41,882 nucleotides of DNA from Bacteroidota bacterium (GTDB taxonomy: Bacteria > Bacteroidota > Bacteroidia > UBA7662 > CANHCV01), in assembly GCA_947459245.1 (NCBI GenBank), contig CANHCV010000018.1:1-41882 (forward strand). Reading direction: 5' to 3'. Each line of letters begins with the position of its first letter. The first letter of the stretch is position 1. The notes under the pieces were generated by a model that was not told where the DNA came from, did not search any database, and saw only the letters and a program-made list of their open reading frames with translations. Shown in pieces: positions 6,214-21,534 of the stretch. The translations under genes and the position numbers were made by a program.

Positions 6214-6241
6214 AAGGGTGAAATTTCACCCTTCTTTTTTT
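6213..6241 (+). terminator. Perfect-palindrome terminator after the glutathione peroxidase gene
   Basis: GAAGGGTGAAA (6213-6223) is followed at once by its exact complement TTTCACCCTTC (6224-6234) and then seven T residues (6235-6241). This is a typical intrinsic terminator shape. It is unusual that the start codon of the next gene (GTG at 6218) lies inside the left arm of the stem. Confidence 0.8.
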
Positions 6242-9200
6242 GACCGCCTTCGTGAAAAGCTCGTTGGAGAATCTGGTCGCTCCATTTACCTCCACGCCCT
6301 ACCCGGAAGAACGGGTTCGCGCCTGGAGTTGCACGATTTGTATTACGTGCTCAAAGGCGCGGAAAATCGCTTTTTGCAATTGCTGCTTTCGGAAGAAGCC
6401 TTCTCATTGGAACTCCCGTTTCCAACGACTGAAATACCTTCCGATTCCCCATTGAAAACCATTTTCCGCAAACTCCAAAATGCGGCGTTTGAACACGATA
6501 ACCTTTTGAAAGAAACGGGAGTAGCTTCCTTCTCTTTTGGTTATCCCTTGTTGGTCCATCAAAATCAGGATCGCATTTGGGCTAGCCCTTTGTTCATTTG
6601 GCAGCTCGACATTCACATGGATCCGCTCAACAACGCCTTTGTTGTTTCCAGGAATAGAACCAAACGCAATGGGCGTTGGACGGTTTCTTCCATGCACGAA
6701 TTTTCCATCAACGAAACGTTGGGGCAACATTTCAAACGAATGGGTCGACCTGCTTTGCCCGAGTTAGAAGGGTTTTTAAACGAAGACGATGTGCTTTCGG
6801 TGGATGAGATGCACCGTTTTTTGGTGCAATTCGCCCAAGAACAGGGATATGGCTCTGAAGCTTTCGACCCTCAATTATTAAAATCGTACCTCGGAGCTTC
6901 GGTTTTGCCGTTGCCCAACCGCGACAGATTGGCGCTCGAATTTCAGGAAAAGAAAGAATACCTGTTGTTCTCTGGTGTGTTCGGGATTTTCAAACAACGG
7001 AAAAGCGCCATCATCAAAGAATTGAATGGGTTGGAGAGCGTGGAATTATTTCCTCCGCTTCCACCCAAAAAACGCATTCCCTTCTCCCCCATTCCAACCG
7101 ATCCCTCCCAACAATCGGTACTCATGAATTTGGGAGAAGCCGAAGTTACGGTCATCCAAGGGCCACCGGGAACGGGGAAAAGCCAAACCTTAACGGCCAT
7201 CATTACCCAAGCCTTGTTGAACAAGGAAAAGATTTTGGTGGTTTGCGAAAAGAAAACGGCCATGGAAGTGTTGGCTCAGAATCTTTTAAAAGTTGACCCT
7301 CGTTTGGGCCAACACCTTGCACTCATTGAAGACCCGTTCGCCGATCGGGATGAAGTGGTTACAAAGGCAAGAGAGAAAATAGAGCGGAAAGAAACCGAAG
7401 AAGGAAATGCCTTTTCGAAAACCGTTCTCACTCAAATGGAGCAATTGGAAACCGATGTGCACCTTTACGAAGAGCGATTAAGCAAACTCCAATCACCTCT
7501 TTTCGATCAGAAAAACTGGATGGAATGGATTGAGTATTTCGATGAAATCGGTGGACCGATTGAATTGAACGAAGATCTGCCGCACCTTCCTTTCTCCTTT
7601 GAAGAAAAAGAGTACCAATGGGTTATTCAAACCTCAAAATCCATCCAACAATGGCAGGAAGAAATTCCCCAATTTTTCCAACATCCTTTTTTTGAGTTTT
7701 CTTCAGAACAACTCTCCCCTACCTCGTTTCCGAAACATTTTTCTGATTTGTACCAATCGGTTTATCGGTGGAAACAATTGGAAGATGAGCTTCAAAGGGG
7801 CAACGATTCGGGCAATTGGAACCAATACCTGCAAACCTGGGAAAAATGGAAAGCCGATGGCAAAACCCTTCAACACGAATTTGCCCAATCGCCTTGCATT
7901 CGTTGGAAGGGTTTTTCGTTAACGCTCAGAAAATGGTTATCGGCTATTTCCTCATCTTTGAAATCCGAATTGGAGAAACGGGATGTTTGGTTGAAGAAAT
8001 GGGCCGCATGGAAACAAATGGCTTTGACTTTGGGCGAAACGACAGCGGCCCAATTGGAGTGGCCAACCGATGAAATTTCCTTTTCAACGGAGCCGAACGG
8101 TTGGCAAAAAAGCAACCTTCTTTCCCCATCGGTCCTTCAATTGCTTCAAGACCGAGCGAACATTCAAACCAACCTTCAACGGAATCCGATTCTTCCTGCT
8201 CAACTTCCTTTTTCCCAAGTGGATTTGATGAATTGGGTGACCACCAACGAAAAATCGGTGGCTCGTTCTGGGTTGATGCATGACATCAAAAAGGCGTGGG
8301 AAGGATTCTCTCCCGATCAAAAAACTTGGGCGATGGAAATTGCTCGAAGAAAAACCTCAACTCCAGCGGTATTGCGATGGTACCTCCATTGGTTTTTTCA
8401 ATTTAAAAAAGACCTTTCCCTTCCGTCGGATGTGCACGAACCGCTGCAGTTGGCGCATCGATTGAGGCATTTGGCACCCGCCATGTTGGATTTTATTCAT
8501 TCCCAAGAGTTGGAGCGCACTCGTTTGGCGCTTCAAAAATTCAAGGAAAAGGGAATCTCACCCATCGGCTTGTACAACAAGCGGGGAGCGAAAGGACAAA
8601 AACGAAATCCGCTTCGGCAAATCATCGCCACCGACACCGAATTGTTCACCGATTTATTTCCGGTGGTGATGATGAATCCCGTTACCGCCAGTCAGATTCT
8701 TCCTTCCAATGCGGCCCTATTCGATTGGATTTTGCTGGACGAAAGCAGTCAGCTGCGGGTGGAGGATACGTTTTGTTGCCTTCGAAGAGCGAATCGTGCC
8801 ATCGTTTCAGGCGATGAGCAACAAATGCCACCGTCCGATTACTTTTCTTCGGATTTTTCCCTCACTCCCGACGAAGAAGAATCGGGTGAATGGACGGAAA
8901 AGGAAGCGCAAAAAAGTTTAACCGAGGCCGAATCGCTGTTGGATTTTGCGCTTCAACTCCCTCAGTCGAACCGATTACCGCTTTCCATCCACTACCGTTC
9001 GGAACATCCATTATTGATTCAGTTTTCCAACGCAGCTTTTTACCAGAATCAATTGATTCCCATCGCCGCCGACCGCATGGATTCGCCCATTCATTTTCAT
9101 TCCGTGAATGGAAATTACGAAGATGCAACCAATCAAAAAGAAGCAGAGGCATTGGTGGAAGCCATCAAAAAGATTCAACCAATGCCCAACGGGAACTGGC

Positions 9201-9901
9201 CTAGTTTTGGAATTGGAACGTTGAATTTGTACCAACGAAATTTGATTTTGGCAAGCATCGCTCAAAAACAATTGGAGGACGCCGATTTTCGAGCCGTTTG
9301 GCAGCATTTGGAAGGTTCGGCATTTGTCAAAAACTTGGAGCACATTCAGGGAGACGAACGCGATGTTTTGTTCATTTCAACCACTTTCGGGCCCGATCGG
9401 AACGGAAAATTCAGAAGGAACTTTGGGCCCATCTCCCAAAAAAATGGCTACCGATTGCTGAACGTATTGATTACCCGAGCCAAAAAACGAATGGAGATTT
9501 TCTGTTCGTTTCCCGATTCCGTTTTTCAAGAAACAAGTTCCATTTTGCAGGAGCAAGGCAAAACGGGTGGATATTACTTCCTCAGCTTTTTAAAGTATGC
9601 CAAGGCCTGTTCCAACCTTCAATGGGACAATGCCAATTCGGTATTGAAGGAAGTTAGTGGCAACGGTGTTTCGGCCAATCCGTCTCCTCAACTTTTCGCT
9701 CATTGGTCGGCCGAACGCAAAAAAGCCCTCATCAAAGACGGTGGAGTGCAATTAAAGAAAGGCACCCGTTTCCTTTGGAACGATTGGGGCAAAACGTTCG
9801 CAGAACGAAAAAACTTCTGGGTGCATCAAACCTTTTCCCTCCGATGGCTCACCCACTACGAAGAAGAAAAAAACAAAATGGAGGATTACCACCAACGCTA
9901 A
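6218..9901 (+). CDS. Large SF1 helicase with DUF4011-like N-terminus
   Basis: This 1227-residue protein is a superfamily 1 ATPase of the type found in DUF4011 helicases. Walker A is VIQGPPGTGKS (312-322). It is followed by LVVCEKKTAMEVL, the usual motif Ia of this group. Walker B is ILLDESS, with Asp841 and Glu842. Motif III is SGDEQQMPP, motif IV is IHYRSEHPLL, and the arginine-finger motif is LITRAKKR (R1087). About 500 residues separate motifs Ia and II. The N-terminal ~290 residues, including ETGVASFSFGYPLL and ASPLFIWQLDI, resemble the DUF4011 region. No nuclease domain is visible in the last 130 residues. GTG at 6218 is the only start that keeps the conserved N-terminus, and an in-frame TGA lies at 6212. 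The biological role is unknown; related helicases often occur in defence or DNA-repair loci. Confidence 0.82.
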   Translation: MKFHPSFFDRLREKLVGESGRSIYLHALPGRTGSRLELHDLYYVLKGAENRFLQLLLSEEAFSLELPFPTTEIPSDSPLKTIFRKLQNAAFEHDNLLKETGVASFSFGYPLLVHQNQDRIWASPLFIWQLDIHMDPLNNAFVVSRNRTKRNGRWTVSSMHEFSINETLGQHFKRMGRPALPELEGFLNEDDVLSVDEMHRFLVQFAQEQGYGSEAFDPQLLKSYLGASVLPLPNRDRLALEFQEKKEYLLFSGVFGIFKQRKSAIIKELNGLESVELFPPLPPKKRIPFSPIPTDPSQQSVLMNLGEAEVTVIQGPPGTGKSQTLTAIITQALLNKEKILVVCEKKTAMEVLAQNLLKVDPRLGQHLALIEDPFADRDEVVTKAREKIERKETEEGNAFSKTVLTQMEQLETDVHLYEERLSKLQSPLFDQKNWMEWIEYFDEIGGPIELNEDLPHLPFSFEEKEYQWVIQTSKSIQQWQEEIPQFFQHPFFEFSSEQLSPTSFPKHFSDLYQSVYRWKQLEDELQRGNDSGNWNQYLQTWEKWKADGKTLQHEFAQSPCIRWKGFSLTLRKWLSAISSSLKSELEKRDVWLKKWAAWKQMALTLGETTAAQLEWPTDEISFSTEPNGWQKSNLLSPSVLQLLQDRANIQTNLQRNPILPAQLPFSQVDLMNWVTTNEKSVARSGLMHDIKKAWEGFSPDQKTWAMEIARRKTSTPAVLRWYLHWFFQFKKDLSLPSDVHEPLQLAHRLRHLAPAMLDFIHSQELERTRLALQKFKEKGISPIGLYNKRGAKGQKRNPLRQIIATDTELFTDLFPVVMMNPVTASQILPSNAALFDWILLDESSQLRVEDTFCCLRRANRAIVSGDEQQMPPSDYFSSDFSLTPDEEESGEWTEKEAQKSLTEAESLLDFALQLPQSNRLPLSIHYRSEHPLLIQFSNAAFYQNQLIPIAADRMDSPIHFHSVNGNYEDATNQKEAEALVEAIKKIQPMPNGNWPSFGIGTLNLYQRNLILASIAQKQLEDADFRAVWQHLEGSAFVKNLEHIQGDERDVLFISTTFGPDRNGKFRRNFGPISQKNGYRLLNVLITRAKKRMEIFCSFPDSVFQETSSILQEQGKTGGYYFLSFLKYAKACSNLQWDNANSVLKEVSGNGVSANPSPQLFAHWSAERKKALIKDGGVQLKKGTRFLWNDWGKTFAERKNFWVHQTFSLRWLTHYEEEKNKMEDYHQR

Positions 9902-10476: not shown

Positions 10477-12612
10477 ATGATACAAGCTGTGGTAAAAAAG
10501 GGACGCGTCATTGGCGAACGGGTTCCAACTCCTTTGGTTTCTGACGGATGCTTATTGATTAAAGTGGTGAATTCTTGTATTTCTGCCGGCACTGAAATGG
10601 CCGGTGTGAATGAATCGGGAAAATCCATCATTAAGCGGGCCATGGAACAACCCGAACAGGTGAAAGAGGTGCTGCAGTTCATGAAAACCAACGGAATACA
10701 GCGAACTTTGGCGAAAGTGAAGGGGGCTTTGGATGGAGGAAAGCCAACGGGGTATTCCATCTCTGGAATTGTTATCGGTTTAGGAACTGGAGTTTCCGGA
10801 TTTTCGGTGGGCGATTCGGTTGCCGCCGCCGGTGCCGGTTTGGCCAATCACGCCGAATTCGTTGATGTTCCCGTAAACTTGGTGATGAAAATGCCCCAAG
10901 GAATGGACTTCCAAAAGGCCAGTACGGTTACGCTGGGCGGCATTGCGATGCAAGGCGTTCGTCGGGCCGATTTGCGTTTGGGAGAAGTATGTGTGGTGGT
11001 TGGAGCAGGAATTCTTGGATTATTGGCGCAACAAATGCTCCAACTTTCAGGGGTTCGAACCATCGTTACCGATTTGGATCCTAGCCGTTTGGATATCGCT
11101 CAAAAATTAGGCGCGGAACGCATTGTTAATCCTGCCAAGGAAGACGTGATCAATGTGGTGAATTCTTTAACGGGCGGCCACGGGGCCGATGCTGTTTTGT
11201 TTACCGCTGCTACGTATTCCTCCGAACCGCTTTCTACCGCGTTCAAAATGTGCAAGAAAAAAGGCCGTGTGGTTTTGGTAGGCGTTTCGGGCATGGAAAT
11301 TAAACGAGGTGACATTTACGCCAAAGAACTGGACTTCCTCGTTTCTACTTCCTACGGCCCTGGTCGTTACGATTCTAACTACGAAGAAAAGGGATTGGAT
11401 TATCCGTTCTCGTATGTTCGATGGACCGAAAACCGAAACATGACCGAGTATTTACGCTTGGTTCACGAAAACAAAATAGACTTGTCGCTTTTAATTGATG
11501 CGGTTTTCCCCATTGAGCAAGTGGAAGAAGCGTTTACGGCCTTGACTTCGGAAGGCAAAAAGCCCATCATGACGTTGTTGGACTACGGAAAAGATGGGGT
11601 GGATTCGTTTCTAACCAAAAATGCCGATGAAAAACGAATTTCCATCAACACCCGGCCAACGAATGCGTCAAAAATTCGGGTAGCTATTGCCGGGGTTGGC
11701 GGATTTGCGACCGGGATGCACCTTCCCAATTTAGCTTCTCTTTCATCTCAATTTGAAATCAGAGCCATTTACAACCGAAGCGGACAAAAGGCGAAAGCCA
11801 TTGGAAATCAATACCAGGTAGCGTATGCCACTTCCGATTACCAAGAATTGTGCAACGATCCCGATTTGGATTTGATCATGATTTGTACCCGCCACGGAAA
11901 CCATGCTGAATTGGCTTTGCAGGCATTAACAGCGGGCAAAAACGTTTTTGTTGAGAAACCGTTGGCCATCAACGAAGAGCAATTGCAAGGCATTAAAGAT
12001 TTTTACGCAAACGGAACGGAAGGTAAACCGGTTTTGATGACGGGTTTTAATCGTCGCTTTTCCAAGTATGCGCAAGAAATGAAAAAAGCTACTTCGAAAC
12101 GCAGCAATCCGTTGTTGATGCATTACCGCATGAACGCCGGATTCATTCCTTACGACCATTGGACCCACGACGACGGCGGAAGAATCATTGGGGAAGCTTG
12201 CCACATCATCGATTTGATGACGTTCTTCACGGAAAGCAAGGTTGTTTCTGCTCATTTTGAAGGGTTAGAAGGAAATGAACGGGTTCGAAAAACCGACAAT
12301 CTAAGTCTTCTACTGAAATACGAAGACGGCTCCATTGCCCACATTGATTATTTTGCGACCGGCTCCAAGCAACTCAGCAAAGAATATTTGGAAATTCATT
12401 TTGACGACCAAAGTTTGGTGATGGACGATTACAAATCGTTAAAGGGGTACGGTGTAAAATTGAAAGATATTCAAAGTTCGATTTCGGAAAAAGGTCAGAA
12501 GGAGGAACTTAACTTCTTGTACACGACTTTGAAAGAGGGAGGCCCTTGGCCGATTGCCCTTTGGGACATGATTCAAACCACCGAAATTACTTTTGAAGCA
12601 GTAAAAGAATAA
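10477..12612 (+). CDS. Bi-domain oxidoreductase (MDR dehydrogenase fused to Gfo/Idh/MocA)
   Basis: This 711-residue protein joins two NAD(P)-binding enzymes. Residues 1 to about 370 are a medium-chain dehydrogenase/reductase domain, with the nucleotide-binding loop VVGAGILGLLAQQ (G176, G178, G181). From about 392, a Gfo/Idh/MocA-type domain begins with VAIAGVGGFATGMHLPNL (A405 to about 414) and carries the family Glu-Lys-Pro motif at 493-495 (NVFVEKPLAI). The architecture is known and is often found in polysaccharide or LPS loci, where a sugar substrate is likely; no glycosyltransferases are visible here. It starts an operon, with the TauE permease only two bases downstream. The substrate and the reason for the fusion are unknown. 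Confidence 0.9.
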   Translation: MIQAVVKKGRVIGERVPTPLVSDGCLLIKVVNSCISAGTEMAGVNESGKSIIKRAMEQPEQVKEVLQFMKTNGIQRTLAKVKGALDGGKPTGYSISGIVIGLGTGVSGFSVGDSVAAAGAGLANHAEFVDVPVNLVMKMPQGMDFQKASTVTLGGIAMQGVRRADLRLGEVCVVVGAGILGLLAQQMLQLSGVRTIVTDLDPSRLDIAQKLGAERIVNPAKEDVINVVNSLTGGHGADAVLFTAATYSSEPLSTAFKMCKKKGRVVLVGVSGMEIKRGDIYAKELDFLVSTSYGPGRYDSNYEEKGLDYPFSYVRWTENRNMTEYLRLVHENKIDLSLLIDAVFPIEQVEEAFTALTSEGKKPIMTLLDYGKDGVDSFLTKNADEKRISINTRPTNASKIRVAIAGVGGFATGMHLPNLASLSSQFEIRAIYNRSGQKAKAIGNQYQVAYATSDYQELCNDPDLDLIMICTRHGNHAELALQALTAGKNVFVEKPLAINEEQLQGIKDFYANGTEGKPVLMTGFNRRFSKYAQEMKKATSKRSNPLLMHYRMNAGFIPYDHWTHDDGGRIIGEACHIIDLMTFFTESKVVSAHFEGLEGNERVRKTDNLSLLLKYEDGSIAHIDYFATGSKQLSKEYLEIHFDDQSLVMDDYKSLKGYGVKLKDIQSSISEKGQKEELNFLYTTLKEGGPWPIALWDMIQTTEITFEAVKE

Positions 12613-12614
12613 AC

Positions 12615-13397
12615 ATGGAAATTCTCGGTTACGCCCTCGCCCTTTTGATCGGATTAAGTCTTGGACTCATTGGCGGGGGCGGATCCATTTTGGCGCTACC
12701 TGTTCTGGTTTATTTGTTGAATGTGCCCGAATTGGAGGCCACTTCTTATTCTTTTTTTGTGGTTGGTTTGGCAGCCTGGGTAGGTACAATCCAAAAATCT
12801 AAAGATCGGCTCATTGATTTCAAATCAGCACTAATTTTCGGAATTCCGTCGATTTTGTCCGTTTACATCGCACGTTTTTACCTACTGCCACTCATTCCAG
12901 AATCATTCAGTATCACTGATTATTCGTTTGCCAAAGGAAATGCCCTGATGATTTTTTTCTCCTTCATCATGATTTCAGCGGGATTTTCCTCCATTTCAAA
13001 AAGTAAAGAGAATTCAAATGCATCCGTTTTTTCGGTCTATTCCTTGGTCATTGCTGGGTTTATGGAAGGCCTCTTAACCGGTACTGTTGGTGCTGGGGGT
13101 GGTTTCCTCATCATTCCATTGCTCCATCGTTTTGGCAAATTGGAAATAAAGAAGGCCATGGCAACATCATTGTTGATCATTTCCGTTAAATCTACTTTAG
13201 GATTTGCTGGAGATTTAACTCGATTTTCTCCCAATTGGTCTATTTTATTGCCTTTTTCGGCCATGGCCATTGGCGGGATATTTTTAGGAAATTCGCTGGC
13301 TAAAAAAGTTTCTTCAAGTTCCTTAAAAAAAGGATTCGGTTGGTTCCTCATCGCTTTGGGATTCCTTATTTTTGCGAAGGAACTCTTCATGAAATGA
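12615..13397 (+). CDS. TauE/SafE family sulfite exporter-like permease
   Basis: This 260-residue integral membrane protein begins with LLIGLSLGLIGGGGSILALP, the glycine-rich first repeat of the TauE/SafE family. The second repeat has the matching FMEGLLTGTVGAGGGFLIIP at about residues 150-170. About eight hydrophobic helices are expected. Members transport small sulfur anions or organosulfonates. The start is two bases after the oxidoreductase stop, and the stop overlaps the start of the multiheme cytochrome by 4 bases (ATGA), so the three genes form one translationally linked operon. Co-occurrence with a multiheme cytochrome makes an oxidised inorganic anion such as sulfite a reasonable guess for the substrate, but this is inference. 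Confidence 0.9.
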   Translation: MEILGYALALLIGLSLGLIGGGGSILALPVLVYLLNVPELEATSYSFFVVGLAAWVGTIQKSKDRLIDFKSALIFGIPSILSVYIARFYLLPLIPESFSITDYSFAKGNALMIFFSFIMISAGFSSISKSKENSNASVFSVYSLVIAGFMEGLLTGTVGAGGGFLIIPLLHRFGKLEIKKAMATSLLIISVKSTLGFAGDLTRFSPNWSILLPFSAMAIGGIFLGNSLAKKVSSSSLKKGFGWFLIALGFLIFAKELFMK

Positions 13398-15307
13398 AAA
13401 AAAGTATTTGGATTTGGTGTTTATTGGCGGCAGGACTTTTTTTCCTTTGGAATTGCAACAACAACCAAGAAACATCTTCCGTTCCAACATCTTCTTCAAA
13501 TTCTCCGTGGCTGAATATTAACGACACCGTTGACTACGTTGGGATGGCCAAGTGCGCCATGTGCCACGATACCATTCGCCACACCTTTACTCATACGGGA
13601 ATGGGGCAATCGTTCGATACCGCCTCCTTCGAGAAATCGGCAGCAAACTACCAACATCCCATCATTTACGACAAAAAACTCAATTTTTACTACCAAGCAT
13701 TCAAGTCAAACGGAAGCATTTTTATGCGCGAATTTCGTTTAGAAGGAAGAGATACGGTTCATCAACGGGTTGAAAAAATTGATTACATCGTAGGTTCTGG
13801 CCAACACACCAATAGCCATTTAACGAGCGTAAACGGTTACCTCTACCAAATGCCCATGACCTTTTACACCCAACAAAAGAAATGGGATTTACCTCCAGGT
13901 TTTGAAAATGGAAACAACAGTCGATTTTCACGAATCTTGAATTCCGAATGCATTTCGTGCCACAATAGCTTACCTGAAATGGATCGAGGATCGGAAAATA
14001 AATTCACCCTCATGCCCAAAGGGATTTCCTGTGAGCGTTGCCATGGCCCGGGAGAGTTGCACGTTCATGAAAAGCTCAAAGGCATTCGGGTAGATACTAA
14101 AAAGGATACCGATTTTACCATTGTGAATCCCAAGAAATTATCGTTCGATTTGCAGGTTAATTTATGCCAACGTTGCCATTTGCAAGGAAATGCCGTTTTA
14201 AAACCAGGGAAAACATTTTTCGATTTCCGTCCGGGAATGCAATTGAGTGAAGTGATGAGTGTGTTTTTACCGAGGTACGAAAACGATCCTTCGTTCATCA
14301 TGGCATCGCATGCCGATCGAATGACCCAGAGCAAATGCTTCACCAAATCGGGGAAACTAACGTGCATCACGTGCCATAATCCGCACGTGAGCGTAAAAGT
14401 TACGGGGAAACAGATTTTTAACGATGCTTGCAATTCCTGCCACTCGAATTCGAATCAACACTTGTGCACCAAGGCAGGAATCACTGCTCAGTCGAATTGC
14501 GTAAGTTGCCACATGCCGAGAAGCGGCACCAAAGATATTCCCCACGTAACGGTTCACGACCATTTCATTCGCAAACCCGAACCATCAAAGAAAGTTGCGG
14601 GTGAAAAACGATTCATTGGCTTGGCCTCCATCAACGAAAAGAATCCTTCTGCTCTCACGATGGCCAAGGCTTACGGTCAGTTTTACGAGCGGTTTGATAA
14701 CGGAAATTCCAAGCATTTGGACAGCGCATTTTTCTACCTGCAACGTTGCAAATCGAAGGACCTAGAATATTGGAGGACTTCCATTTATTTGCATTTCATG
14801 AAAGGCAATTTTTCGGAGGTTTTAGAATCCGGCAATCGATTGGGATTGGAGAATTGGGATGCATGGACGGCCTACCGAATGGGGGAAACCCAGCATGAAA
14901 TGGGCATGCTTTCCGAGGCGGTTGGATCGTTGAAAATGGCCGTAAAACTTCAGCCGAGGAACTTGGAATTTCAAAATAAACTTGCCGCCTATTTGATGGA
15001 AAGTCAGGATTTTGCTTCCGCAAAAAAGACTTTGGAATGGATCATTCAGGAAAATCCAAAGGAAGTTCAGGCATGGAATAATCTTGGATTTTTGCACTTG
15101 CAAAGTGGAAATGGCGCAAAAGCAGGCGATTGTTACCGAAAAGCTTTGGCCTTGGATCCCGATTATGAGCCGTTGTTGATGAATTGGGCCGGTTATTGTT
15201 TGTACCAAGGGAATGTTCGGGAGGCCCAAAAGATCGTTAGCAGAATCATTCAGAGAAATCCTCAGAACCAGCAAGCGAAAGCAATTCTGGAACAGCTGAA
15301 ATCATAA
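13394..15307 (+). CDS. Seven-heme cytochrome c lipoprotein with C-terminal TPRs
   Basis: The 637-residue protein has seven CxxCH heme c motifs in its N-terminal two thirds: CAMCH (C54), CISCH (C186), CERCH, CQRCH, CITCH, CNSCH and CVSCH. Hydrophobic residues followed by LWNC at about residue 18 give a probable lipobox, so it should be a periplasm- or surface-facing lipoprotein. From about residue 470 to the end there are tetratricopeptide repeats, for example AWNNLGFLHLQSG and ALALDPDY. The ATG at 13394 is chosen because it gives a normal lipoprotein leader and a 4-base overlap with the TauE gene. The fold probably resembles the cytochrome c554 / multiheme cytochrome group. It could be an electron-transfer subunit or a reductase for a nitrogen or sulfur oxyanion; the reaction cannot be read from sequence. 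Confidence 0.9.
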   Translation: MKKSIWIWCLLAAGLFFLWNCNNNQETSSVPTSSSNSPWLNINDTVDYVGMAKCAMCHDTIRHTFTHTGMGQSFDTASFEKSAANYQHPIIYDKKLNFYYQAFKSNGSIFMREFRLEGRDTVHQRVEKIDYIVGSGQHTNSHLTSVNGYLYQMPMTFYTQQKKWDLPPGFENGNNSRFSRILNSECISCHNSLPEMDRGSENKFTLMPKGISCERCHGPGELHVHEKLKGIRVDTKKDTDFTIVNPKKLSFDLQVNLCQRCHLQGNAVLKPGKTFFDFRPGMQLSEVMSVFLPRYENDPSFIMASHADRMTQSKCFTKSGKLTCITCHNPHVSVKVTGKQIFNDACNSCHSNSNQHLCTKAGITAQSNCVSCHMPRSGTKDIPHVTVHDHFIRKPEPSKKVAGEKRFIGLASINEKNPSALTMAKAYGQFYERFDNGNSKHLDSAFFYLQRCKSKDLEYWRTSIYLHFMKGNFSEVLESGNRLGLENWDAWTAYRMGETQHEMGMLSEAVGSLKMAVKLQPRNLEFQNKLAAYLMESQDFASAKKTLEWIIQENPKEVQAWNNLGFLHLQSGNGAKAGDCYRKALALDPDYEPLLMNWAGYCLYQGNVREAQKIVSRIIQRNPQNQQAKAILEQLKS

Positions 15308-15317
15308 AAAATCTACC

Positions 15318-15346
15318 TTGAAATTTAGATTTGTTCCTTATTTTTG
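15318..15346 (+). promoter_or_regulatory. Bacteroidota-type promoter for the DUF2809 gene
   Basis: TTG at 15318-15320, an 18-base spacer, and TATTTTTG at 15339-15346 match the TTG-N(17-21)-TAnnTTTG consensus. The -7 box covers the first possible start codon (TTG at 15344), which argues for the next TTG at 15365 as the true start. Confidence 0.65.
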
Positions 15347-15364
15347 AGCAAAGAAACTACTTTC

Positions 15365-15757
15365 TTGAAACAACGTCACCCTAAATATCAGATTCTCTTT
15401 TTCTTCGTTGCCTTGTTATTTGGTTTAAGTGTAAGGAATTCAGAGCCCCATTTGCCCTACTATTTCAGTTTGATGGGTCCGGATATGATTTGGGCTGGAA
15501 TGGTGTTTTTGGGTTTTGGGATTTTGTTTCCTAACACCAAAACACTAAGCATCGGCGTTTATTCCATTGTTTTTGCTTTTGGAATAGAAATCAGCCAACT
15601 TTATCAAGCTGATTGGATCAATGAAATTCGGAGCAACAAATGGGGCGGATTGGTTTTGGGGCACGGTTTTCTGTGGAGTGACTTATTGGCCTACACTTTG
15701 GGCATTGGAATTCTTGGTTTTCTGGACTATCGCTTCATTTTTCGAGTAAAGAAATAA
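15365..15757 (+). CDS. DUF2809 family small membrane protein
   Basis: This is an integral membrane protein of about 130 residues with four hydrophobic helices. The segment FGIEISQLYQADWINEIRSN followed by VLGHGFLWSDLLAYTLGIG matches the conserved C-terminal half of DUF2809 (YjgA-like) membrane proteins, whose function is unknown. The start is a non-ATG codon. TTG at 15344 lies inside the promoter -7 box, so TTG at 15365 is preferred. The gene has its own promoter and is followed by a second promoter before the P450 gene, so it need not belong to the downstream operon. Confidence 0.78.
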   Translation: MKQRHPKYQILFFFVALLFGLSVRNSEPHLPYYFSLMGPDMIWAGMVFLGFGILFPNTKTLSIGVYSIVFAFGIEISQLYQADWINEIRSNKWGGLVLGHGFLWSDLLAYTLGIGILGFLDYRFIFRVKK

Positions 15758-15788
15758 TTGTCGTTTTCAATTTTTTCTTTTAGTTTTG
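15758..15788 (+). promoter_or_regulatory. Bacteroidota-type promoter of the P450-GH3-enolase operon
   Basis: TTG at 15758-15760, a 20-base spacer, and TAGTTTTG at 15781-15788 fit the TTG-N(17-21)-TAnnTTTG consensus. Transcription would begin near 15794, upstream of the ATG at 15805 but downstream of the ATG at 15790, so the later start is preferred for the P450. Confidence 0.65.
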
Positions 15789-15804
15789 GATGTTAACATC
15801 ATCC

Positions 15805-17151
15805 ATGAAGAAGACTTTCCAACCTATGGCCTCGGGGAAATTCCCGGTAATTGGTCATTATTTAAATTTTAGAAAAAGCCCCTTTCATTTTTTTCAAAAG
15901 CACACTGCTGAACAGAAAGATCTGTTTTGGTTTGATTTGTTTGGTCGGAAATTCTTGGTGCTCAATCATCCAGAAGCCATCAAGCATGTTCTAATCAATA
16001 AAGCAAAAAATTATACCAGAAAACCCAATTATCAGTTTTTAGAAGAATTATTGGGGGAAGGACTTTTAACTACCGAGGGTGAGATTTGGAAACAAAAACG
16101 GCGACTGGCCCAGCCATTTTTCAATAAAGAACAAATGGATGGCTTATTTGGAATCATTGAAAATTCGGCCATAAACTTTTGGAAAGAAAGAAAAGAAAAT
16201 CAATTGTTTGATTTAGAGGAAGAAATGAGCCATTTAGCGTTATCCATGCTAACCGACTCCATTCTACAAGCAGAAATGGACTTTCATTTTGATGAAATTA
16301 AGAAACATCTTCATTTCGCTTCTAAACACCTTACAACCAAACGATTCAAAGCCTTCAATTGGCAAAAAAAATTACCAACCAAAATTCGAAAACAAGGTTT
16401 GGCAAGTATTGAAATCCTGAAAGAAATAGTTGCTCAAATCATAGAAAATCGGGAAAAATCTGAACATCTGCACAATGATCTTCTTGCGATGTACATGTCG
16501 ACTTCTGATGTTGATACCGGTAAAAAACTCAATGCAGAGGAAATCTTGGATGAGGTAATGACCATGTTTGTTGCTGGTCATGAAACTACTTCCGTGGTTT
16601 TAACTTGGTCGATGGTTTTGTTGCATCAACACCCCAATATTTTTGAAAAGGTAAAAAGCGAAATAGATGGCAATTTTCAAGGACAGCCATTGAATGGCGA
16701 GGAGTTGAAAAACTTCCCCTACTTAAAAATGTGTATCCAAGAATCCATGCGCCTTTATCCTCCAGTTTGGGGATTTGGCCGGAAAGCATTGGAAGAAGAT
16801 GAAATCATGGGAATTCCAGTCCCCAAAGGGGTAAATGTGAATATTCCCGTTCTTTTCCTTCACCGAAATCCATCATATTGGGAAAAACCGCTTACTTTTT
16901 ATCCGGAACACTTTCTCGAAGAAGCCGTAAAAAACAGGGATAAATTGGCCTATATTCCTTTCAGTGCTGGACAACACCGATGCATTGGTGAGTATTTTTC
17001 TTTGGTAGAGGTTCAAATTGCTTTGATTCACCTGATAAAAAATTATCAGTACCAAATTGAGTTGCCCAAAACCCTCGATTTAGAATTATTGGTGACTATT
17101 AAACCTCAATTTCCCATTTCATTTGAACTAACTCCACGAAAATCATCATGA
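15805..17151 (+). CDS. Cytochrome P450
   Basis: The 448-residue protein has all the P450 hallmarks: the I-helix oxygen-activating motif AGHETT (257-262), the K-helix ExxR pair (E313 and R316 in ESMRLYPPVW), and the heme-thiolate loop FSAGQHRCIG, with C393 as the iron ligand. It has no N-terminal membrane anchor, so it is a soluble bacterial P450 that needs separate redox partners, and none is encoded nearby. Its general look (fatty-acid or terpene hydroxylase-like, class CYP4/CYP102-related I helix) suggests a hydrophobic substrate. The ATG at 15805 is chosen because the ATG at 15790 lies before the expected transcription start. It is the first gene of a four-gene run; its stop overlaps the next ATG by 4 bases. 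The substrate is unknown. Confidence 0.95.
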   Translation: MKKTFQPMASGKFPVIGHYLNFRKSPFHFFQKHTAEQKDLFWFDLFGRKFLVLNHPEAIKHVLINKAKNYTRKPNYQFLEELLGEGLLTTEGEIWKQKRRLAQPFFNKEQMDGLFGIIENSAINFWKERKENQLFDLEEEMSHLALSMLTDSILQAEMDFHFDEIKKHLHFASKHLTTKRFKAFNWQKKLPTKIRKQGLASIEILKEIVAQIIENREKSEHLHNDLLAMYMSTSDVDTGKKLNAEEILDEVMTMFVAGHETTSVVLTWSMVLLHQHPNIFEKVKSEIDGNFQGQPLNGEELKNFPYLKMCIQESMRLYPPVWGFGRKALEEDEIMGIPVPKGVNVNIPVLFLHRNPSYWEKPLTFYPEHFLEEAVKNRDKLAYIPFSAGQHRCIGEYFSLVEVQIALIHLIKNYQYQIELPKTLDLELLVTIKPQFPISFELTPRKSS

Positions 17152-17912
17152 GCTTTACCGAAAAACCCTGGCTCCCCTATCGAGATAGCATTGTAGATTT
17201 CCTCAAATTGGGAGGGGAGCGCAACATGGCCCACGCCAATTTCGAAGTAGAAATCAGCAAAATGACCGAGGCCATTTCGCAGCGTAAATTAAAAGTACAT
17301 TCCGGTATTTCGCAATTGGCCTATTTGCTTTGGTGTTACGGACAAGCGGTGGCTCGACACCCCGAAATGCAAGGAATAAAAAAGGGGAAGAAACTCATCA
17401 TTTTCGACGATGTGGATGTTTCCATGATTTTTGAAAAGGAAACTCCAAACGGAATCAAAGTTCCAATTCCCTATATTTTTCGAGCCATTCAAAAAAAATC
17501 ATTCGATGAAATTCTGCAGGAATTCATCAAAGCTGAAGGAATGAGTTTGGAGCAATTGCACATCCGTAAAAAAAGCAAATTCTTTCAATCCCTCCCAGCT
17601 GCTGTTCGGCAATGGATTTTAAAACGTGCCCTTTCGAATCCAAACAAATGGAAAGAAGCGTTGGGCACGGTTGCGTTCACCACGCTGGGTTTAATTGTTC
17701 GGAATCGGAAATTTTGGCCCATCCCCATTGGTCCCTACGGGTTGATGATGGCTGCGGGAAGTTCTTATTCGGTTCAGGATTTGAACGGCAAACACACTTA
17801 TTTGTGCATGGTTGTTCATTTCGACCACAATTTAGTGGATGGAGCTCCCGCCGTTCGCTTCGGGAAAACTTTCATGAACCTCATAGAAAGCGCTGAAGGA
17901 TTAACGGCATGA
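17148..17912 (+). CDS. Lipoyl-less E2-type (CAT-fold) acyltransferase
   Basis: The 254-residue protein matches only the C-terminal catalytic domain of 2-oxo acid dehydrogenase E2 acyltransferases. The active-site motif HxxxDG is intact in HFDHNLVDGAPAVRF (H227 and D231), and the upstream segment TLGLIVRNRKFWPIPIGPYG fits the conserved strand of that domain. There is no lipoyl domain and no subunit-binding domain, and no E1 or E3 genes are nearby, so it is unlikely to be part of a dehydrogenase complex. A free-standing domain with this chloramphenicol acetyltransferase-like fold would be expected to move an acyl group from CoA or another thioester to a small-molecule acceptor. It overlaps both neighbours by 4 bases. 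The role in the pathway is inference. Confidence 0.82.
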   Translation: MSFTEKPWLPYRDSIVDFLKLGGERNMAHANFEVEISKMTEAISQRKLKVHSGISQLAYLLWCYGQAVARHPEMQGIKKGKKLIIFDDVDVSMIFEKETPNGIKVPIPYIFRAIQKKSFDEILQEFIKAEGMSLEQLHIRKKSKFFQSLPAAVRQWILKRALSNPNKWKEALGTVAFTTLGLIVRNRKFWPIPIGPYGLMMAAGSSYSVQDLNGKHTYLCMVVHFDHNLVDGAPAVRFGKTFMNLIESAEGLTA

Positions 17913-20455
17913 AAAACGAAAACTTTAAAGCGCTTTTTTCTTGGGGATTATACCCTTTCACGTTTTTAGGGGCCTCTATTTTATTTGTTTACCTTTCGTC
18001 GAAGGGGCCCCAATACCTTGAATTGGCCACTACCCTACCCGTTCTTATCTCCATTCTCCTCATTTTTTGGGGTGAGAAAATCCTTCCGTTTCGCGAAGAT
18101 TGGATTCCAAAGAAAACCGATTACAAAACCGATGTATTTTATTTGTTGCTGGTTCAAACCGTACTCCCCAAGGTTTTTACCTTTCTTTTGGCTGTTATCC
18201 TTTTAAAAGTTGCACCTGATTTCAAAAAAATTACCCTATGGCCTCATCATTGGAACCTCTTGAATCAAGTACTTTTGGTTACCTTCATTTCCGATTTTCT
18301 GAGGTATTGGTTGCATCGCCTAAGTCATACCGTTCCTTTTTTCTGGCGTTTTCACGCCGTTCATCATTCGGTTGAAAAGCTTTATTGGCTCAACACCAGT
18401 CGTTTTCACCCCATTGAAAAACTTTTTCAGTTTATTTTGGATGTCCTTCCTTTCGTTTTATTAGGAGTTTCCAAAGAGGTTCTTGCCTTTCATCTGGTTC
18501 TCTATGGGGTGAATGGATTTTTTCAGCATTGCAACATTCAATTGAAGTACGGTTGGTTGAATTACTTGGTTTCGAGTTCAGACCTTCACCGCTGGCATCA
18601 TGCCAAAGAAATTCACGAATCGAACAACAACTATGGAAATAACATCATTCTTTGGGATCTTCTTTTCGGGTCGTATTACAACCCCAACAAACCCATTTCC
18701 GAAATTGGCCTTTACAATCGCCAATATCCCCAACAATTTGAAGGCCAATTAACAGCCCCTTTTAATTCCGAATTGGACAAAAGCCCAAAATTCCATTTAC
18801 GTTTATCCGACAATTTGATCAATTGGGTGATGCGACTCAAAGTGAATCGATTAAAAAAGAACTTGCATCCTCAATTTTACAACGATTGCCAAAATCCGGA
18901 TAAACAGCAATGGAACGTTCTTCAACAATTCCTTCAGAAAAATGCCTCAACCGATTTAGGGAAAAAGTACCAATACCAACAAATCAATTCCATTGAAGAT
19001 TTTCAAAAAACGGTTCCAACGCATGATTATGAAGCCTTTCGAGAACTTATTGTTCATCAAATTCACCACCCCGAAAGTCAATGTTTCGTAGCTGAAAAAT
19101 TAATTCTTCTTAATAAAACAAGCGGAAGCACCAACGTTCCTAAGTTAATTCCAGTAACGCAGTCGGTTTTAGATGGATTAAAATTTAGCCAAAATTTATC
19201 CTTGAGCTTTCAGTACAACATGGAACAAAAAGGATATTCAGGAAAAATTTTAGGAATTGTAAGCCCGGCCCAGGAACCCGTTTCTGATTTACCGGTTCCA
19301 ATTGGTTCTGCATCAGGTCATTTCTACAAGAACATGCCGAGGATGGTAAAGAACAAATACGTAGTACCACATTCCGTTTTTGAAATCGAAAATTTTGAAG
19401 ACAAATACTACATCATTCTTCTTCTTGGAATCCAACACAGAGACGTAACCTACATCGGAACTGCTAACCCGTCAACGGTGTTAAAGTTAAACCAATTGCT
19501 GAACCTTCGAAAGCAGGATTTATTGAATGATCTAAAAACAAAAACGCTATCAACTTCCCAGTCCATTCCCTTATCCATACAAACCAAGGTCCTCAAAAAA
19601 CTGAATCCAAGCCAAGGCAGATTGGAAGAATTGGAAATCCTATTCCAAAAAGCAACCCTATCGTTTACGGATATTTGGCCTTATTTGCGATTGTTAAACA
19701 CCTGGACCGGAGGAAGTTGCGGAGTGGCATTAAATGCCGCAAAAGCGTTGATTCCTGCTGAAACGACCATCATCGATCCTGGATATCTTTCAAGTGAGTT
19801 TAGAGGTAGTATCACCGTGGACCTTAAAACTCAGGGCGGTGTTCCAACCTATTTTTTAAACTTTTTTGAATTTATTGAAGAAGAAAAATTTGAAACCGGT
19901 CAATTGGAATTTCTCACACTTGGAAAGCTAGAAAATGGGAAAACCTATTACGTTTTTGTTACCACCCCATCGGGATTGGTGCGCTACGCGATGAACGATA
20001 TCGTTCGGGTGGTAGGATTTATCGGAAAAATGCCGCTGATCGTGTTTGTGCAAAAGGGAAATGGAATTACCAACATTACTGGAGAAAAATTGCACGAAGG
20101 GCAAGTCCTATCGGCTTTGAATGAACTTCAGCTGCCGTTGGCTTTTGCTCAGGTTTTAGCCAACGAAGAAAAGGCTCAATACGAGGCGTACTTCGAATTT
20201 GAAACCAATCCCAACAACCTTCCAACGCTTGCGCTTCAATTGGATGAGGCCATCGCCCGCAACAACTCCGAATATGCCGAGAAGCGCAAAAGCGGGCGAC
20301 TTCAACCTTTAATCCTTCTGCCATTGAAGAATGGAACGTACGACCAAATCAAAAAACTTGGAGTAAAAGCAGGGCAAAATGAATCTCAATTCAAAACCAT
20401 TTTACTCCAATATTCCTCCAAATACGCCATACCCATCCAACAATTCTTGGCATGA
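17909..20455 (+). CDS. Fusion: fatty acid hydroxylase/sterol desaturase - GH3 acyl-adenylating synthetase
   Basis: The 848-residue protein joins two enzymes. Residues 1 to about 285 form a membrane di-iron oxygenase of the fatty acid hydroxylase/sterol desaturase family: several hydrophobic helices and the histidine clusters HRLSH (136-140), HAVHH (149-153) and HRWHH (227-231). Residues from about 300 to the end match the GH3 (auxin-responsive promoter) family of acyl-acid amido synthetases. The ATP-binding motif is NKTSGSTNVPK (402-412), GYLSSEFRGS starts at 625, RYAMNDIVRV starts at 692, and GITNITGEKLHEGQV forms the C-terminal hinge. GH3 enzymes adenylate a carboxylic acid and join it to an amino acid. 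The domains are in one uninterrupted frame, so this is not a sequencing break. It overlaps both neighbours by 4 bases. Each domain call is firm; the combined product is unknown. Confidence 0.9.
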   Translation: MKNENFKALFSWGLYPFTFLGASILFVYLSSKGPQYLELATTLPVLISILLIFWGEKILPFREDWIPKKTDYKTDVFYLLLVQTVLPKVFTFLLAVILLKVAPDFKKITLWPHHWNLLNQVLLVTFISDFLRYWLHRLSHTVPFFWRFHAVHHSVEKLYWLNTSRFHPIEKLFQFILDVLPFVLLGVSKEVLAFHLVLYGVNGFFQHCNIQLKYGWLNYLVSSSDLHRWHHAKEIHESNNNYGNNIILWDLLFGSYYNPNKPISEIGLYNRQYPQQFEGQLTAPFNSELDKSPKFHLRLSDNLINWVMRLKVNRLKKNLHPQFYNDCQNPDKQQWNVLQQFLQKNASTDLGKKYQYQQINSIEDFQKTVPTHDYEAFRELIVHQIHHPESQCFVAEKLILLNKTSGSTNVPKLIPVTQSVLDGLKFSQNLSLSFQYNMEQKGYSGKILGIVSPAQEPVSDLPVPIGSASGHFYKNMPRMVKNKYVVPHSVFEIENFEDKYYIILLLGIQHRDVTYIGTANPSTVLKLNQLLNLRKQDLLNDLKTKTLSTSQSIPLSIQTKVLKKLNPSQGRLEELEILFQKATLSFTDIWPYLRLLNTWTGGSCGVALNAAKALIPAETTIIDPGYLSSEFRGSITVDLKTQGGVPTYFLNFFEFIEEEKFETGQLEFLTLGKLENGKTYYVFVTTPSGLVRYAMNDIVRVVGFIGKMPLIVFVQKGNGITNITGEKLHEGQVLSALNELQLPLAFAQVLANEEKAQYEAYFEFETNPNNLPTLALQLDEAIARNNSEYAEKRKSGRLQPLILLPLKNGTYDQIKKLGVKAGQNESQFKTILLQYSSKYAIPIQQFLA

Positions 20456-21534
20456 TTACTCATTTTTTCATTGAATCCCTTCAAATTCCGTTTCGGGTTT
20501 CCTTCAAACATCACTCGGCAACACGAACCACTACCGAAACCATTTTGGTGAAATTAGAAGGCCCAAATTGGAATGGCTGGGGAGAATCTTGTCCGCGGAA
20601 GTATGTTACCGGCGAATCTTGTGAATCGGCAATAACCCAAATCAATACCTGGTTAAAAAACGGAATTCCTTTTTTCGATTTACCCTCATGGGATTCCTTT
20701 TGCGATGCGCACAAGGATAGCATCGAGAAAAATCCCGCAGCGTTTTGTGCTCTGGAATTGGCATTTTTCGACGGTTATAGCAAGTACCTTAACATTCCCG
20801 TTTCCTCCATTTTAGGCTGGCAAAAAATTGAAAAAACCTTTCATTATTCGGCCGTTTTGGGAGATGGGTCTTTTTCAACATTTCAAAAATTAGCTGAAGC
20901 ACATTTGAACTGGGGTTTCAAATCTTTCAAAATAAAAATTTCTGGAAATCCAGAAGTCGACTTTGAGAAACTCGTTTGGTTATTCAACCAAAATTCCAGC
21001 TTAAAAATTCGACTTGATGCGAATAACTGCTTTTCTTCAGTAAATCAAGCCATTCAATACCTTCAACATCTTCCCATTCCCATTGAAGCCATGGAAGAAC
21101 CGTTGGAATCGAAATCAAACCAAGAACTCCTAGCATTAATTCAATCCATTTCAACCCCGATCATTTTGGATGAAATGGCCATTCGGAAAGATGACCTCCT
21201 CCCCTTTTCGAATTTCAACCAAAAAATTTGGATCAACTTGCGGGTCTCCAAAATGGGTGGGATTCAAAAAACCAACCAAATTCTCAAATTAGCCGAAGAG
21301 CTCGGATTTGGAATTGTGGTTGGATGTCAAGTCGGTGAAACTTCTCTTCTAGCGCATGCCGGATTGCTAATTGCCCAACAAGTTTCCAATTTAAAAGGAT
21401 TGGAGGGTGGCTATTCCGATCGATTATTGGAAAACGACCCCTTCAAGCCACCCATCATTTTCGGAGAAAACGGCAGCTTTAACGGTGTAGAAATCGGCAA
21501 TACTCCGGGATTCGGAGTTCGATTAGGGAATTAA
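20452..21534 (+). CDS. Enolase-superfamily enzyme, muconate lactonizing/dipeptide epimerase-like subgroup
   Basis: This 360-residue protein is a complete member of the MLE subgroup. The catalytic lysines are K162 in KSFKIKISG and K267 in RVSKMGG; the metal ligands are D189 (LDANN), E215 (MEEPLE) and D240 (IILDEM). An N-terminal capping domain (about residues 1-120) and a C-terminal region complete the fold. The subgroup includes o-succinylbenzoate synthase, N-succinylamino acid racemase and dipeptide epimerases. The D-x-D sequence near the C-terminus that binds the peptide amino group in dipeptide epimerases is replaced here by EGGYSDR, so that activity is not supported. As the last gene of the operon after a GH3 enzyme, it may act on an N-acyl amino acid or another carboxylate, which is inference. 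Its stop shares a TTAA with lepB. Confidence 0.85.
   Translation: MITHFFIESLQIPFRVSFKHHSATRTTTETILVKLEGPNWNGWGESCPRKYVTGESCESAITQINTWLKNGIPFFDLPSWDSFCDAHKDSIEKNPAAFCALELAFFDGYSKYLNIPVSSILGWQKIEKTFHYSAVLGDGSFSTFQKLAEAHLNWGFKSFKIKISGNPEVDFEKLVWLFNQNSSLKIRLDANNCFSSVNQAIQYLQHLPIPIEAMEEPLESKSNQELLALIQSISTPIILDEMAIRKDDLLPFSNFNQKIWINLRVSKMGGIQKTNQILKLAEELGFGIVVGCQVGETSLLAHAGLLIAQQVSNLKGLEGGYSDRLLENDPFKPPIIFGENGSFNGVEIGNTPGFGVRLGN

Follow-up and report, generated by a model that had tools for sequence, protein, structure and literature searches.

What does a bacterium make with a cytochrome P450, an acyltransferase, a hydroxylase fused to an amide synthetase, and a member of the enolase superfamily, all encoded in one operon? 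The question is raised by a 41,882-nucleotide stretch of DNA (contig CANHCV010000018.1 of assembly GCA_947459245.1, hereafter "the window") from a Bacteroidota bacterium whose genome measures 2.35 Mb and is 99.96% complete. Four genes follow one another there on the forward strand (coordinates in the table below). They encode the P450, a stand-alone E2-type acyltransferase, a single 848-residue protein in which an FA_hydroxylase domain (Pfam PF04116) is joined to a GH3 acyl-acid amido synthetase (PF03321/PF23571/PF23572), and an enzyme of the MLE subgroup of the enolase superfamily. The best single answer, inferred and carrying somewhat less than an even chance, is a tailored N-acyl amino acid lipid, for which the GH3 domain would couple acid and amino acid, the hydroxylase would oxidize the head group, the MLE enzyme would epimerize it, and the P450 and E2-type protein would tailor the acyl chain.

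The case for treating these genes together comes largely from another class of Bacteroidota. Among 395 genomes sampled from the phylum, the MLE gene is found at E <1e-30 in two, the window genome and G262, which belongs to that other class. The order P450, E2, fusion, and MLE is repeated in both G262 and G715, which are congeners (identities of 43–44%, 44%, 43%, and 36–37%, respectively), and the genes flanking the operon are unrelated to those flanking it in the window. The same order kept across two classes while the flanks differ is strong evidence that the four genes are one functional unit. All three genomes examined from the window's own family carry the fusion gene, and in none of them are the genes scattered, an arrangement that would have spoken against a shared pathway. 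The four-gene unit of the original prediction is thus borne out in these two classes, but the unit conserved more widely is the trio of hydroxylase, GH3, and MLE, and the P450 and E2 are lineage-specific additions to it. For example, a 44% homologue of the E2-like protein occurs only in the same operon of G262 and G715, and the protein was not found in any of the nine other genomes with the module that were tested. Weaker homologues (27–34%) in eight other Bacteroidota have no relatives of the window's P450, GH3, or MLE near them.

The trio itself has a wide but patchy distribution. Without the P450 and E2, and with its first two domains fused, it is seen in a Cytophagaceae metagenome-assembled genome (L005, in which the MLE gene runs off the contig), in two Gammaproteobacteria metagenome-assembled genomes (L006 and L007), and in L045; the hydroxylase and GH3 are fused in L018 as well. 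In three loci (L026, L027, and L044), hydroxylase, GH3, and MLE are adjacent but separate genes, and the GH3–MLE pair is seen at contig edges in L020, which belongs to the same order as the window genome, and in L046. Gene fusion in some lineages and adjacency in others is a classic sign of functional linkage, and this core shows both. An MLE gene adjoins GH3 in every module locus examined. The distances among the GH3 domains and among the MLE enzymes are correlated over nine loci (Mantel r 0.74, p 0.0004), and they remain so when the most divergent locus, L028, is left out (r 0.48, p 0.003). Both trees also join the Bacteroidota loci L018 and L035 with the Gammaproteobacteria loci L006 and L007 (93/97 and 97/94). 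Because the distances correlate and the trees share this cross-phylum grouping, the pair appears to move between phyla as a unit. Occurrence is sparse: 5 of 295 and 3 of 369 genomes in two Gammaproteobacteria samples and 2 of 390 in a sample of a further order, counts that include the seed genomes and, among the five, two loci of a polyketide synthase (PKS) type described below.

The catalytic motifs are intact in all of the encoded enzymes, as had been claimed for the operon at the outset. In the fusion protein, the hydroxylase part has the three histidine clusters of the FA_hydroxylase superfamily (HX3H, HX2HH, and HX2HH, present as HRLSH, HAVHH, and HRWHH), which are found in 12 of the 12 homologues examined. 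It matches the OlsE model NF052566 over residues 7–288 with 205 bits, far under the cut-off of 475, and so is OlsE-like rather than an OlsE. The GH3 part is a GH3 acyl-acid amido synthetase, with its N-terminal, middle, and C-terminal domains all above the Pfam cut-offs and nucleotide motifs 1–3 that read TSGST, YLSSE, and RYAMND. Its score against the OlsH (lyso-ornithine lipid synthetase) model NF052613 is 56 bits, compared to a cut-off of 620, and by this score it falls outside that family. Two marks set its clade apart: ND in place of GD in motif 3, and GEK where the genome's other GH3s have GEH or GEE. Those others are two unlinked genes elsewhere in the genome (G000), on contigs C14 (L036, 7532–9034) and C7 (L037, 5773–7299), which are far closer to OlsH (384 and 398 bits) and stand apart in the GH3 tree on long branches.

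The MLE enzyme has all the features of its subgroup, a TIM barrel with a capping domain, a KxK motif (K160 and K162), the metal ligands D189, E215, and D240, and the opposed K267 on strand 6. The enzyme therefore has the two lysines that proton transfer from both sides requires, and the site looks compatible with an N-acyl amino acid racemase. A profile search gives the N-succinyl-Arg/Lys racemase 2p88 as the best match in the PDB, followed by dipeptide epimerases. For the AlphaFold2 model built from four sequences (pLDDT 82, pTM 0.84), the best fold matches are the L-Ala-D/L-Glu epimerase 1jpm and the dipeptide epimerase 3jva, with 2p88 close behind. A family signature of H20, R25, R49, Q293, and E318 is shared even with the PKS-linked MLEs at 28% identity, although position 293 is a histidine in L027. 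H20 and R25 are predicted from the alignment to lie in the pocket; model residues 15–25 around them have pLDDT <50. A search of plasmids with the enzyme gave only matches of 23–25%. A racemase role for the enzyme is put somewhat under an even call.

The P450 is a cytochrome P450 by its heme loop with the cysteine ligand (FSAGQHRCIG), its I-helix (AGHETT), and its ExxR motif (ESMR), and its nearest solved relatives include CYP97, CYP102, CYP3A, and CYP51 types, which is not decisive. The E2-like protein matches PF00198 at 40.7 bits (cut-off 23) and keeps the motif HNLVDG. A Pfam scan finds no lipoyl domain in it, only the catalytic domain, and thus it does not have the lipoyl, E1/E3-binding, and catalytic domains of a 2-oxoacid dehydrogenase E2 component. 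A role as a subunit of pyruvate or oxoglutarate dehydrogenase was rejected, since there is neither a lipoyl domain nor a PDB match.

Elsewhere, other proteins are found beside the core. In L005, L006, and L007, a CocE/NonD alpha/beta-hydrolase with a membrane-like N-terminal region adjoins it, and a short protein in L026 and L045 resembles only that N-terminal region. This small conserved membrane-like protein or domain, of about 145 residues, is linked to the core at L045 12406–12852, at L026 394–822, and as the N-terminus of L006 13693–15954, and it has no Pfam match where scanned (L026). In two genomes of 5.2–5.3 Mb (L028 and L029), a PKS, a thioesterase, GH3, an S33 hydrolase, and MLE are encoded in series. 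No hydroxylase gene lies beside GH3 and MLE in these two, and their MLE pocket signature is nearly the same as in the window. The PKS and thioesterase fit the release of a long-chain acid as the GH3 substrate. This row of genes (L028 3–9553 and L029 8960–18999), with a PKS2-like polyketide synthase and an S33 hydrolase whose N-terminus resembles a signal peptide, looks like an undescribed polyketide–amino acid conjugate cluster. OlsH works with OlsI, an alpha/beta-hydrolase that serves as an O-acyltransferase (PMC12493201), and on this ground the E2-like, CocE-like, and S33-like proteins may all occupy one acyl-transfer slot.

From the gene set, its order, the motifs, and the co-inheritance, we infer the reactions, substrates, and products that follow. 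The GH3 domain would adenylate a free carboxylic acid, probably a fatty acid, with ATP and use it to acylate the amino group of an amino acid. The amino acid would most likely be basic, of the kind of ornithine or lysine, a preference suggested only by analogy with OlsH, OlsE, and 2p88. The fused membrane hydroxylase would then oxidize the head group or a carbon close to it, and the MLE enzyme, with its two opposed lysines, would take the alpha-proton off the N-acylated amino acid and put it back, which would yield the epimer. In the window lineage, the P450 may hydroxylate the acyl chain and the E2-type transferase acylate the resulting hydroxyl, filling the slot held elsewhere by alpha/beta-hydrolases, OlsI in the ornithine-lipid pathway and the CocE or S33 type in related loci. 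The idea of an N-acyl amino acid gains strength from the kinship of the GH3 with OlsH (PMC12493201), from the likeness of the hydroxylase to OlsE and of the MLE to racemases, and from the PKS–thioesterase–GH3–MLE cluster elsewhere. With this account and the alternatives that share its backbone taken together, an amino acid N-acylated by some fatty acid is the probable product. A bolder version, in which a cross-phylum aminolipid pathway inverts the head group after assembly, with an MLE racemase that has its own pocket and yields the D-form, and with the hydroxylase and clade-specific acyltransferases finishing the molecule, is rather doubtful.

Several points weigh against the proposed pathway. 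No member of the operon's module has been characterized. OlsH-like specificity cannot be assumed for the window GH3, because it scores so far below the unlinked paralogues against the OlsH model, and the substrate of OlsE is the assembled ornithine lipid, which need not hold for the window hydroxylase. A sequence search of the PDB gives no match for the E2-like protein, and its predicted structure (pLDDT 41) was not used as evidence. The MLE enzyme lacks the DxD motif of dipeptide epimerases, and a racemase-type site is also compatible with elimination or cycloisomerization.

This last point opens an alternative that keeps the N-acyl amino acid backbone. The MLE could be a dehydratase or cyclase that acts after the OlsE-like domain has hydroxylated the amino acid side chain, losing water or closing a ring to leave a dehydro- or cyclic N-acyl amino acid. 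Its NCBIfam matches do include relatives such as o-succinylbenzoate synthase and cis-3-hydroxyproline dehydratase, and a hydroxylase adjoins it wherever the context is complete, except in L028 and L029. These two exceptions, with their near-identical pocket signature, imply that a hydroxylated substrate is not obligatory, and racemases and epimerases come closest in both profile and fold; the alternative is unlikely. It is highly improbable that the enzyme merely sits in the operon as the o-succinylbenzoate synthase (MenC) of this genome or as a dipeptide epimerase for peptidoglycan. MenC (TIGR01928) is its best NCBIfam match and 1jpm its best fold match, but the MenC score is 85.9 bits, well under the cut-off of 200.65, and the gene is not beside men genes. 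A better MenC candidate adjoins a gene on contig C48 that we take to be menA-like, and MenC was rejected on the score and on this separate candidate. The dipeptide epimerase was rejected because the DxD of strand 8, which binds the N-terminal ammonium, is missing: 14 of the 14 GH3-linked MLEs have EGG or EGA where 1jpm has FDFDAP. A pairing with GH3 that crosses phyla also argues against either role.

Two further alternatives concern the acid and the head group. The GH3 acid could be isoprenoid, carotenoid-derived, or aromatic, made or trimmed by the P450, so that the product is a small conjugate resembling a signal or antibiotic and not a membrane lipid. Plant GH3s act on jasmonate, auxin, and benzoates, the P450 matches include terpene oxidases (the NCBIfam albaflavenone and pentalenene models) and the CYP97 carotene hydroxylase, and rare, patchy occurrence fits specialized metabolism. 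However, no linked isoprenoid gene was seen in the loci examined, the GH3–MLE pair is linked to a PKS and a thioesterase in L028 and L029, and the characterized bacterial GH3 takes fatty acids (PMC12493201), which makes a substrate of this kind quite unlikely. An ordinary ornithine-lipid locus, with GH3 as OlsH, the hydroxylase as OlsE, the E2-like protein as the O-acyltransferase, and an MLE that only repairs or recycles, is very unlikely. The OlsE and OlsH models are the best matches of the two parts of the fusion, but both scores lie far under the curated cut-offs, MND and GEK depart from the usual residues, and MLE adjoins GH3 at every module locus examined.

The three overlaps at the gene junctions of the operon are ATGA, exactly as first described, and only the one between GH3 and MLE is found again in distant relatives. 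At this junction, the 4-base overlap is seen in L003, L006, L007, L018, L020, and L027; L005, L044, L045, and L046 have an 11-base overlap or gaps that reach about 16 bases (L026 left out). In L018, a short gap separates P450 from E2 and another separates E2 from GH3. The P450 most likely starts at 15805 rather than at 15790, because the sister genomes (L003 and L004) lack the ATG at 15790 and keep ATGAAG or ATGAAA at 15805; this start also leaves enough room for the promoter. The predicted promoter is supported by its conservation at the same position in both sister genomes, and not by the rarity of the pattern: TTG-N20-TAnnTTTG occurs 3 times in the window compared to 2.7 expected by chance, and significance from the pattern alone was rejected.

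Features of the operon, with positions in the window
Feature	Position	Strand	Basis
Promoter-like site, Bacteroidota-type, TTG-N20-TAGTTTTG	15758..15788	+	Same site 5' of the P450 gene in L003 and L004
Cytochrome P450, 448 aa	15805..17151	+	PF00067, 285 bits; reading frame open from 15790
ATGA stop/start overlap, P450/E2	17148..17151	+	Sequence
Stand-alone E2-type acyltransferase, 254 aa	17148..17912	+	PF00198, 40.7 bits; HxxxDG
ATGA stop/start overlap, E2/fusion	17909..17912	+	Sequence
OlsE-like di-iron hydroxylase domain of fusion protein	17909..18799	+	PF04116; NF052566, 205 bits
GH3 acyl-acid amido synthetase domain of fusion protein	18872..20407	+	PF03321/PF23571/PF23572
ATGA stop/start overlap, GH3/MLE	20452..20455	+	Sequence; reading frame coordinates
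MLE-subgroup enolase-superfamily enzyme, 360 aa	20452..21534	+	PF13378

Other genes noted in the window lie upstream. A DUF2809 membrane protein gene (15344–15757, +) is immediately 5' of the P450 gene, as in L003, and it was rejected as a member of the operon because L018 has another gene there, on the opposite strand. Before it are genes for a multihaem cytochrome c with several CxxCH motifs and C-terminal TPR repeats (13340–15307, +) and for a 711-residue fusion of a zinc alcohol dehydrogenase-type half with an inositol dehydrogenase-type half (10477–12612, +), which has a counterpart of the same length at L003 2540–4675. A 1227-residue helicase-type protein (6218–9901, +) partly matches two anti-phage proteins, ProA (362 bits, cut-off 1500) and Hhe, and could be the product of a defense gene.

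No described pathway with this set of genes was found, as the original prediction had stated, but GH3-dependent aminolipid synthesis by OlsH and OlsI was published in 2025. A GH3 with an enolase-superfamily partner is not described in the literature searched, which was limited to open-access papers and is weak evidence for that reason; no lipid racemase of the MLE kind was found in the literature either, and a 2024 aminolipid review does not mention GH3. With no PKS, nonribosomal peptide synthetase, or terpene cyclase, the operon may be missed by routine cluster finders. OlsH is the only characterized bacterial GH3 found, and the operon represents a GH3 clade of its own, constantly partnered by MLE in two phyla. 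The enolase superfamily would gain a possible lipid substrate.

Several known systems come close to the operon. In Singulisphaera acidiphila, OlsH makes N-acyl-ornithine from ATP, a fatty acid, and ornithine; it prefers ornithine, with minor activity on lysine and arginine, and non-hydroxylated fatty acids, and it belongs to thousands of bacterial GH3 homologues, mostly from Bacteroidota (PMC12493201). The window GH3 is likewise a GH3-type, predicted ATP-dependent amide synthetase with motifs 1–3 and an acyltransferase encoded nearby. It differs in its distant, separate clade, its fusion to a hydroxylase, and its MLE partner, and the operon has an E2-like protein and a P450 but no alpha/beta-hydrolase. 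OlsE, described as the ornithine-lipid head-group hydroxylase (Hoelzl 2018, as cited in PMC11631085 and PMC12493201), is matched over the whole domain and in its histidine clusters, but OlsE acts alone and the window domain is fused to GH3. The operon resembles the OlsH pathway, but its proteins score too low for OlsH or OlsE, and its additional partner has not been reported for that pathway. The MLE enzyme shares its subgroup fold, KxK, opposed lysine, and metal ligands with 2p88, 1jpm, and 3jva, at about 20–25% identity, and differs from them in its 20s and 50s loops (H20, R25, and CPR 47–49) and in EGG/EGA in place of DxD. OlsBA, OlsF, and GlsB/GlsA (PMC11631085) yield amide-linked acyl amino acids, the class of product presumed for the operon, by a route with enzymes that the operon lacks, an OlsB-type N-acyltransferase and a PlsC-type O-acyltransferase. 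The clusters for N-acyl tyrosines (thalassotalic acids, kyonggic acids, and stieleriacines; PMC12479983) also make N-acyl amino acids with long chains and encode tailoring enzymes, but they build them with N-acyl amino acid synthases that have ThiF/nitroreductase partners, and the paper makes no mention of GH3, P450, racemase, or enolase.

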